NCBI GenBank assembly: GCA_027618475.1 | Contig: JAQCEJ010000058.1 | Location: 1 to 33,105, forward strand | DNA: 33,105 nucleotides | Direction of reading: 5' to 3' | Origin: Planctomycetota bacterium | Lineage (GTDB): Bacteria; Planctomycetota; Planctomycetia; Planctomycetales; Planctomycetaceae | Position numbers and translations under genes: made by a program | Notes under the pieces: generated by a model | Database searches by the model: none | Told to the model about the DNA's origin: nothing | Seen by the model: the letters and a program-made list of their open reading frames with translations, nothing else | Part shown: positions 8,443 to 24,401 of the stretch, one piece after another | Position numbering within the stretch: position 1 is the stretch's first letter | How the letters are laid out: each line of letters opens with the position of its first letter

Positions 8443-8905
8443 CGTACTTCCCTTCGGAATGGCTGGTCTACAAAACCGGTTGAAGCAAGACGTGTGCGGA
8501 ATATTCGAAATTGCGTTGTGCAACGTTTCACTTGCGAATTGAATCGCGATTATAGACGATCGGTCGTCGAAACTCCATCTTACGCCACGGTCTGCAGAGA
8601 AGAAGGGTGCATCCGTTAAAGGGTGCAGTTCTAACGGCCCGTAGGGCCAGCCGTTTCTATAGCCAGGTCCGCAAGGGCCTGGTCAATGCCGTGTGAAGCA
8701 ATGTATTGAAGGCCCAACGGGCCGGTAGTTCGTCAATATTTTTACAAGCAAAGGGAATGGCCAGCCCTTTGGGCCGGAAAACAGAGGCCTACCATGTAAC
8801 CGATGCCCCCAGAAAAGAAGAGCCCGTCTGTGCCAATATTCGTATTTCAACACGCCGGCGAAAAAATTGTTCCTGTTGGCGATTCGAACTCCGATTGATT
8901 CTCTT
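8443..8905. other. Divergent intergenic region holding a REP-like element
   Basis: About 460 bases lie between the LRR lipoprotein and the GGQ protein genes. The middle is the palindrome-rich REP-like element at 8634-8777. The outer parts show no gene; a direct repeat AGGGTGCA occurs twice (about 8604 and 8620). Promoters for either gene could not be placed. Confidence 0.5.
8634..8777. repeat. REP-like element, solitary copy
   Basis: Successive palindromes ACGGCCC-GTA-GGGCC (from 8634), CCAGGTCC-GCA-AGGGCCTGG (8663-8682) and AGGCCC-AAC-GGGCCGG (8710-8725) have the same order, sequence and approximate spacing as those flanking the RAYT gene at 23677-24330. A fourth, CAGCCC-TTT-GGGCCGG, ends at 8777. 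The first two are separated by GCCGTTT-like sequence, as in the RAYT flanks. No transposase is nearby. Confidence 0.85.
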
Positions 8906-23615: not shown

Positions 23616-23676
23616 CCATCGCGACGATTCGTGCCCGAGGATTTGATTTGCTAAATACATTTCCGTAGTTTATCTG

Positions 23677-23764
23677 CCGGCCCAAAGGGCCGACGGTTTA
23701 CCCAGCCAGGGCCGCAGGCACTGGAAAATCGTGGATCATCATTTTAAGAGGCCCAACGGGCCGG
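23677..23764. repeat. REP element upstream of the RAYT gene
   Basis: The palindromes are CCGGCCC-AA-AGGGCCG (23677-23692), CCAGGGCC-GCA-GGCACTGG (23706-23724) and AGGCCC-AAC-GGGCCGG (23749-23764). The order is the exact mirror of the element at 24244-24330. It ends 20 bases before the transposase start codon. Confidence 0.9.
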
Positions 23765-23784
23765 CCATTGAGCAAGAAGCGATC

Positions 23785-24240
23785 ATGCCACAATCTCTGG
23801 CACGCGTGTGGTTGCATGTGACGTTCAGCACCAAAGATCGTCGTCCGTATTTACAGCATGACGATTTTCGAACGGCAATGTTCAAAATACTCGCTCACCA
23901 CGTCGAGGCAATCGGTTGTGTTTCCGTCATTGTGGGAGGTTGGCACGATCATATCCATATCGTCTGCGGATTATCTCGCACGGTCACGATCTCGTCGCTT
24001 GTCGAACACATCAAAACCGAAACTTCGAAATGGGCCAAACATGTGCCTCATGGTGTTGCCACGTTCGCGTGGCAGGCCGGATACGCCGTGTTTTCGGTGA
24101 GTCAATCCAATCTTCAACGGGTGATTGACTATGTCGAACACCAGGCAACTCATCACGCCACGAAAGCGTTTCAAGACGAACTTCGGGAACTCTGCCATAA
24201 ACATGGTATCGAAATCGACGAGCAATATATGTGGGATTAA
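23785..24240 (+). CDS. REP-associated tyrosine transposase (RAYT, IS200-like)
   Basis: The 151-residue protein is a Y1 HUH endonuclease of the TnpA/REP type, which cuts single-stranded DNA at palindromic sites through a 5' phosphotyrosine link. The metal-binding HUH is HIH at 56-58 (in GWHDHIH); the catalytic Tyr is Tyr116 in RVIDYVEHQATHH. FAWQAGYAVFSVSQSNL (94-110) is the conserved block of this subgroup. All key residues are intact and the length is complete, so it looks functional. A frame is open to 23731, but that part overlaps the REP element; the ATG at 23785 gives the standard start MPQSLARVWLHVTFSTK. It is bracketed by inverted REP copies, a typical RAYT setting, and is not part of a recognisable full insertion sequence with a second gene. 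It probably mobilises or maintains the REP copies. Confidence 0.9.
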   Translation: MPQSLARVWLHVTFSTKDRRPYLQHDDFRTAMFKILAHHVEAIGCVSVIVGGWHDHIHIVCGLSRTVTISSLVEHIKTETSKWAKHVPHGVATFAWQAGYAVFSVSQSNLQRVIDYVEHQATHHATKAFQDELRELCHKHGIEIDEQYMWD

Positions 24241-24243
24241 ACT

Positions 24244-24330
24244 GACGGCCCGTTGGGCCTGATGAATTTCATTGGGACGATTCCAGGGCCTTCGGCCCTG
24301 GCTGGGTAAACGGTTGGCCCTTTGGGCCGG
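24244..24330. repeat. REP element downstream of the RAYT gene
   Basis: Read in reverse complement it repeats the upstream element: CCGGCCC-AA-AGGGCC, then GTTTACCCAGCCAGGGCC with GAAGGCCCTGG, then AGGCCC-AAC-GGGCCGTC. It begins three bases after the transposase stop codon. Together with 23677-23764 it makes imperfect terminal inverted repeats of about 88 bases. Confidence 0.9.
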
Positions 24331-24401
24331 AAGACAGCGTCGTCGACGTTGAAAACTGACGAAAACCTGACACTTGGTTCCTTTTCTTTTTTCCGCCCAA
24401 C

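Follow-up and report, generated by a model that had tools for sequence, protein, structure and literature searches.

What kind of genetic element is formed by a small Y1 transposase gene and the mirrored hairpins that enclose it in a planctomycete contig? Within the window (the whole 33,105-nt stretch of DNA that was analysed), the original prediction placed a compact RAYT unit at positions 23677–24330, with mirrored REP-like elements on either side of an intact gene, and these limits proved right to within a few bases. The window sequence contains an intact Y1 gene lying between two mirror-image elements of ~90 nt, whose arms are complementary over two separate blocks (Table 1). Three hairpins are displayed on each side and, as had been proposed, they follow the same order in both elements: outer GGCCC/GGGCC, central CCAGG.../...CCTGG and inner GGCCC/GGGCC. 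The ATG lies 19 nt past the 5′ element and the TAA ends 3 nt ahead of the mirrored element as set by the covariance model (24244–24331). Among 17 aligned units from the host genome, 99.0% of pairs over the three helices are standard, as against 57–64% with the pairing partners shifted by one base, and the central helix shows compensatory changes at three pairs. An Rfam search returned chance-level matches only. The catalytic residues anticipated for the enzyme are intact (H56-I57-H58 and Y116), and all 36 relatives compared keep H56, H58 and Y116.

Table 1. Positions in the window of the gene unit and of a MITE that carries REP units of the same family.
Feature	Position	Strand	Evidence or detail
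Gene-less ISKra4-type MITE, ~204 bp, TIR GGGTGCATCCGTTAA...	8605–8810		Covariance model, TIR
Full REP unit in this MITE	8633–8726	+	
Partial inverted REP unit in this MITE	8708–8778	−	
5′ three-hairpin REP unit	23673–23765	+	Covariance model, 85.7 bits, E 3e-17
Mirrored arms, first pair	23673–23726 / 24281–24334		54 nt, 91% complementary
5′ unit, outer hairpin GGCCC-AAA-GGGCC	23679–23691	+	Pairs invariant in 17 units
5′ unit, foot CCAG	23702–23705	+	Central hairpin CCAGGGCCGCAGGCACTGG follows at 23706–23724
5′ unit, central hairpin, CCAG foot ahead	23706–23724	+	Compensatory changes; foot conservation
Mirrored arms, second pair	23749–23763 / 24246–24260		15 nt, 100% complementary
5′ unit, inner hairpin GGCCC-AAC-GGGCC	23750–23762	+	Window sequence, 17-unit alignment
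tnpA_Y1 gene, 151 aa (fits subclass 1.2)	23785–24240	+	Pfam Y1_Tnp, 64.5 bits
3′ three-hairpin REP unit, mirror copy	24244–24334	−	Covariance model, 89.6 bits
3′ unit, inner hairpin	24247–24259	−	Mirrored
3′ unit, central hairpin	24283–24301	−	Foot 24302–24305 is CCAG on the minus strand
3′ unit, outer hairpin	24316–24328	−	Mirrored

To which transposases does the enzyme belong? The protein carries DHIH at residues 55–58, WQ at 96–97, the catalytic Tyr116 and the motif Y---Q--HH (YVEHQATHH). TnpA_Y1 subclass 1.2 is defined by DH[IV]H, WQ and Y---Q--HH motifs and a conserved C-terminal extension, about 148 aa (PMC6006769). All three motifs are present in 75 of 75 intact relatives, WQ.GY having been part of the search pattern used to gather them, and in the C-terminal extension of the 151-aa protein D145, E146 and W150 are invariant in 36 sequences. 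The scores against the NCBIfam models for IS200 (47 bits) and REP_Tyr_transpos (24.1 bits) fall below the cut-offs of 55 and 80, respectively. In a tree made by a quick method, with some long branches and free of published subclass 1.2 sequences, 81 such proteins form one group (SH-aLRT 94) that adjoins IS200 and stands apart from the class 2 RAYTs. The AlphaFold model (pLDDT 91.5) best matches the TnpA proteins of ISDra2 and IS608, with a weaker match to the E. coli RAYT (4er8). On the basis of the motifs, the tree and the sub-cut-off scores, we place the window protein on the IS200 side rather than among RAYTs proper, and the name RAYT, used in the original prediction, has to be given up for a protein so far under the REP_Tyr_transpos cut-off. 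By its sequence it fits subclass 1.2, a branch beside IS200, as judged against published members by motifs only.

Three other assignments were considered, and those to class 2 and class 3 were rejected. Class 2, the RAYTs proper, is disfavoured by the REP_Tyr_transpos score and by a foot that reads CCAG (YYAG in general) and not GT[AG]G. Subclass 1.1 (IS200/IS605) is disfavoured by the sub-cut-off score, by WQ in place of W[TS] and by within-genome copies that all differ in score. Class 3 occurs in Planctomycetes and Acidobacteria and thus shares the host phylum, as well as several atypical hairpins around the gene, but its own features are NHVH, W[TA], Y----Q and a CnGA foot, and the window differs at each of them (DHIH, WQ, Y---Q, CCAG).

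Is the mirrored arrangement a property of this locus or of the branch? We took 80 relatives from named genomes, 78 of them with enough flank; being best matches to proteins of the window genome, these loci sample the near part of the branch. When the upstream flank was compared with the reverse-complemented downstream flank of the same gene, the median score was 58.5, versus 18 for shifted gene-sized intervals on the same contigs. Repeats in either orientation flank 68 of the 78 loci versus 1.9% of 259 control intervals, and each 170-nt flank holds 2.80 hairpins (1.24 in controls) with a mode of 3. Repeat-flanked genes make up 31/36 of the loci in Planctomycetota and 25/27 in Verrucomicrobiota, plus single members of other phyla, in counts that include several loci from possibly misnamed metagenome bins. 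The three-palindrome element, presented in the original prediction as a planctomycete version, is not peculiar to planctomycetes: branch-wide, three hairpins are found most often, mainly in these two phyla. The accompanying notion that REP/RAYT systems are known mainly from Gammaproteobacteria is out of date, since work from 2013 already described planctomycete GTAG repeats and, in R. baltica, many tyrosine transposases accompanied by repeats (PMC3733652).

The strongest hairpin in these flanks has a YYAG foot: of 122 cases, 91 have A at position −2 and 81 have G at position −1. No comparable conservation was found on the 3′ side of the same 122 hairpins. A mirrored triplet like that of the window is also present on a Bacteroidota plasmid (Persicobacter, L308); in a second Bacteroidota member (Bernardetia, L309) no clear mirrored triplet was apparent by eye. 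Direct repeats also occur at 30 of the 78 loci. At L160, L133, L147, L125 and L162 the flanking elements are direct and not mirrored, or both, and may be unit arrays. Quentin et al. 2018 gave REP as 'no' for subclass 1.2, which they found mainly in Cyanobacteria and Bacteroidetes (PMC6006769). The genes collected here share with that subclass its motifs, a length of about 150 aa, the extra conserved C-terminal stretch and a low copy number, but they are REP-flanked and come mostly from Planctomycetota and Verrucomicrobiota.

We assign the host to class Planctomycetia, as G051, a genome listed in the same class, matches a named Fimbriiglobus record with full identity over 3.4 kb. We searched the host genome (5.93 Mb in 218 contigs) with a covariance model of the unit and obtained 57 matches at E values up to 0.01, 55 places being classified. 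The many dispersed copies that had been foreseen are thus present, at ~55 units instead of only the two beside the window gene. Four units flank two subclass 1.2 genes, the window gene (C95) and a second gene (C57) with a product 68% identical to the window protein, while one more flanks a third Y1 gene (C84); the four other host proteins that were aligned are 37–68% identical to that of the window. TIR-capped elements, with the cap GGGTGCATCCGTTAAATGGTGG, contain 35 of the units, and 15 have no cap, including four mirrored gene-less pairs (C195, C149, C206 and C90), a split that is approximate, with some looser caps assigned by eye. Two host genes have one REP family in common; for TnpAREP there is usually one gene per REP family.

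Several other tyrosine transposase loci were noted in the host. A further subclass 1.2 gene (C25, L033) contains an in-frame TGA but retains its mirrored hairpins and is probably decaying. Another, at about 10.1 kb on C21 (L034), is devoid of its first ~20 residues and has at its 5′ end the repeat ACTGGTTTCATAACCCGGTTGGC ... GGGTTATGAAACTRCTTGT, which also lies inside a REP-bearing MITE on C210 (L012). Three class 2 tyrosine transposases (L037, L038 and L042, on C109, C44 and C172) each lie between mirrored hairpin repeats of their own, examples being CCGGTTGCTTGCAACCGG and CCCGGACAGCTTTGTGTCCGGG.

What, then, has spread the copies that lie away from the genes? The TIR-capped elements take two forms, a ~290-bp palindromic form with mirrored REP units and a 168-bp form. 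Among 19 complete TIR elements, with and without a window-family REP, 8–9 of 9 target-duplication bases match in 14 (0.3% in mismatched controls), and the MITE in the window is edged by the direct repeat CAGAGAAGA/CAGAAAAGA, which agrees at 8/9 bases. In the relatives G024 and G029 the same TIR ends bound ~1.4-kb elements encoding an ISKra4-like transposase; that of G024 reaches 121.8 bits against a curated cut-off of 205, and the G029 element has a ~8-bp direct repeat at its edges. No autonomous transposase for these TIRs was found in the host assembly, either beside single TIRs or by protein search. Internally, the 168-bp form corresponds to the REPs beside two class 2 genes (C44, with 44/46 bases, and C172) and not the window REP. 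We observed 168-bp MITEs with C44/C172 REPs at L071, L079, L080, L088, L094, L097 and L099 (C24, C78, C84, C14, C60, C77), and one terminal repeat family has acquired the REPs of three transposase families.

The capped elements are DDE-type MITEs with REPs as cargo, and it is because the 168-bp MITEs hold REPs of other tyrosine transposases that the REPs look like cargo. With 35 of 55 units in MITEs that have matching ends and 9-bp duplications, most copies have therefore been spread by another transposase, and the idea that the dispersed copies are products of the window enzyme fails for the majority of them. One might go further and suppose that the repeats are solely a component of the ISKra4-type MITE and that the Y1 gene just happens to lie among them, with no effect on them. 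The proportion of capped units, the target duplications and the TIR match to elements encoding an ISKra4-like transposase all point that way, and TIR caps with 9-bp target duplications are just what these host units share with ISKra4-family MITEs. However, the window-type gene units do not have such ends, both gene-flanking pairs being without TIR. Moreover, in two relatives (G049 and G008) copies are numerous and the TIR is entirely absent, and G049 indicates, though it does not prove, that doublets move without MITE ends. Since, in addition, unrelated subclass 1.2 genes in many genomes have their own mirrored triplets and the 168-bp form carries REPs from elsewhere, we regard this explanation as very improbable.

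The relatives also show what is found away from the genes. G049 gave 46 matches, mostly gene-less mirrored doublets of ~200 bp plus one gene unit, and in a Schlesneria-like genome (G065) that genome's own element occurs 59 times, with many copies in mirrored pairs. Dispersal is not universal, since in the complete genome of Adhaeretor mobilis no copies were found beyond the two at the gene. Many of the G049 doublets (L288–L307) also have the sequence around them in common, GAAACGCCTCATGCCAACGAACGCGGCCCGCC... to one side and ...CATTATGGCAACGCCATG to the other, which may represent a further composite element. Several have additional flanking repeats in common, so that these doublets, too, may be carried by larger elements. 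At the orthologous places in G057 the doublets are absent, in intergenic DNA too diverged for the junctions to be read, and one site may retain a remnant hairpin.

Whole units have been copied as well. In the same Schlesneria-like genome (L102) a second unit lies ~1.1 kb away in inverted orientation, with 599 of 663 bases identical; at either end the homology does not extend past the outer hairpins, and the second gene is frameshifted. L171 and L167, from different genomes, are alike exactly from −129 to +556 around the start codon (84% identity) with no neighbouring ORF in common, whereas other locus pairs share their context and are plain orthologues. The inverted 90% copy at L102 and the unit-only homology of L171 and L167 indicate that copying can, on rare occasions, take in the entire unit, and give comparative backing to this part of the original prediction. 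The same exact boundaries, together with the dispersed copies, bear on the view that the hairpins around this small gene do no more than terminate transcription or stabilise mRNA. GC-rich hairpins do stand directly past the stop codon, and such structures can have these side effects. Simple terminator hairpins were nevertheless rejected, as the hairpins also occur upstream in mirrored form, are present in many copies away from the gene and have a conserved unpaired foot on one side only; we find this account scarcely credible.

Copying with sharp edges would also be expected of an ordinary insertion sequence of the IS200/IS605 type, in which the hairpins on either side would be the left and right ends and the whole would excise and insert as a single-strand circle. 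The fold, the catalytic residues and the nearest solved structures are indeed those of IS608 and ISDra2, and the protein itself is closest to IS200/IS608/ISDra2 TnpA. On the other hand, the ends are mirrored, unlike the same-orientation ends of IS608, with three hairpins in each; there is no tnpB neighbour; gene copies within genomes are few, diverged and all different in score; and gene-less doublets greatly exceed genes in G049 and G065. An ordinary insertion sequence therefore seems an unlikely explanation.

We think it probable instead that the unit is a REPtron-like element of subclass 1.2, in which an HUH/Y1 transposase is accompanied by its cognate three-hairpin REP, mirrored on both sides. 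Its resemblance to REP/RAYT REPtrons and to REPINs/BIMEs lies in a Y1 gene between inverted REPs, in dispersed gene-less mirrored doublets and in an unpaired 5′ tetranucleotide foot ending in AG. It departs from them in having three hairpins per element, YYAG and not GTAG, and an IS200-side protein. The REP/RAYT reading thus holds in form, as a separate IS200-side system.

IS608-style excision needs both ends on one strand. Mirrored units offer one element in readable orientation per strand, an arrangement that suits the joining or copying of doublets better than such excision. We propose that the enzyme most likely binds one hairpin in exposed single-stranded DNA, in one orientation only; the probable target is the central hairpin, whose 5′ YYAG foot is unpaired. 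The DNA would be cut near the foot via Tyr116 and the ends then joined. Gene-less mirrored doublets, similar to REPINs, would be copied to new sites in a replication step, and now and then the whole unit. In E. coli, TnpAREP cuts a REP next to its foot and leaves the inverted REP uncut (PMC8266576). A second engine in the host, an ISKra4-type transposase acting on REP-carrying MITEs, would have made most of the copies.

In the open-licence literature that was searched, we found no REP for subclass 1.2, no three-hairpin form, no YYAG foot and no REPs in ISKra4-type MITEs. Subclass 1.2, listed as having no REP, had been left without a known substrate, and the mirrored three-hairpin element is a testable candidate for one, with a conserved foot that predicts the choice of strand. 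We lean towards the view that in subclass 1.2 IS200-type transposases gave rise, independently and for a second time, to the REP/RAYT lifestyle. The resulting REP system would be widespread in both Planctomycetota and Verrucomicrobiota and scattered elsewhere, with a three-hairpin module, a YYAG foot and mirrored gene-less doublets, its REPs being carried in turn by DDE-type MITEs. As REPs ride in DDE MITEs, a count of REP copies is not by itself a measure of RAYT activity. As the branch is nearer to IS200 than the RAYTs are, it would offer a second case for how insertion sequences become REP systems.
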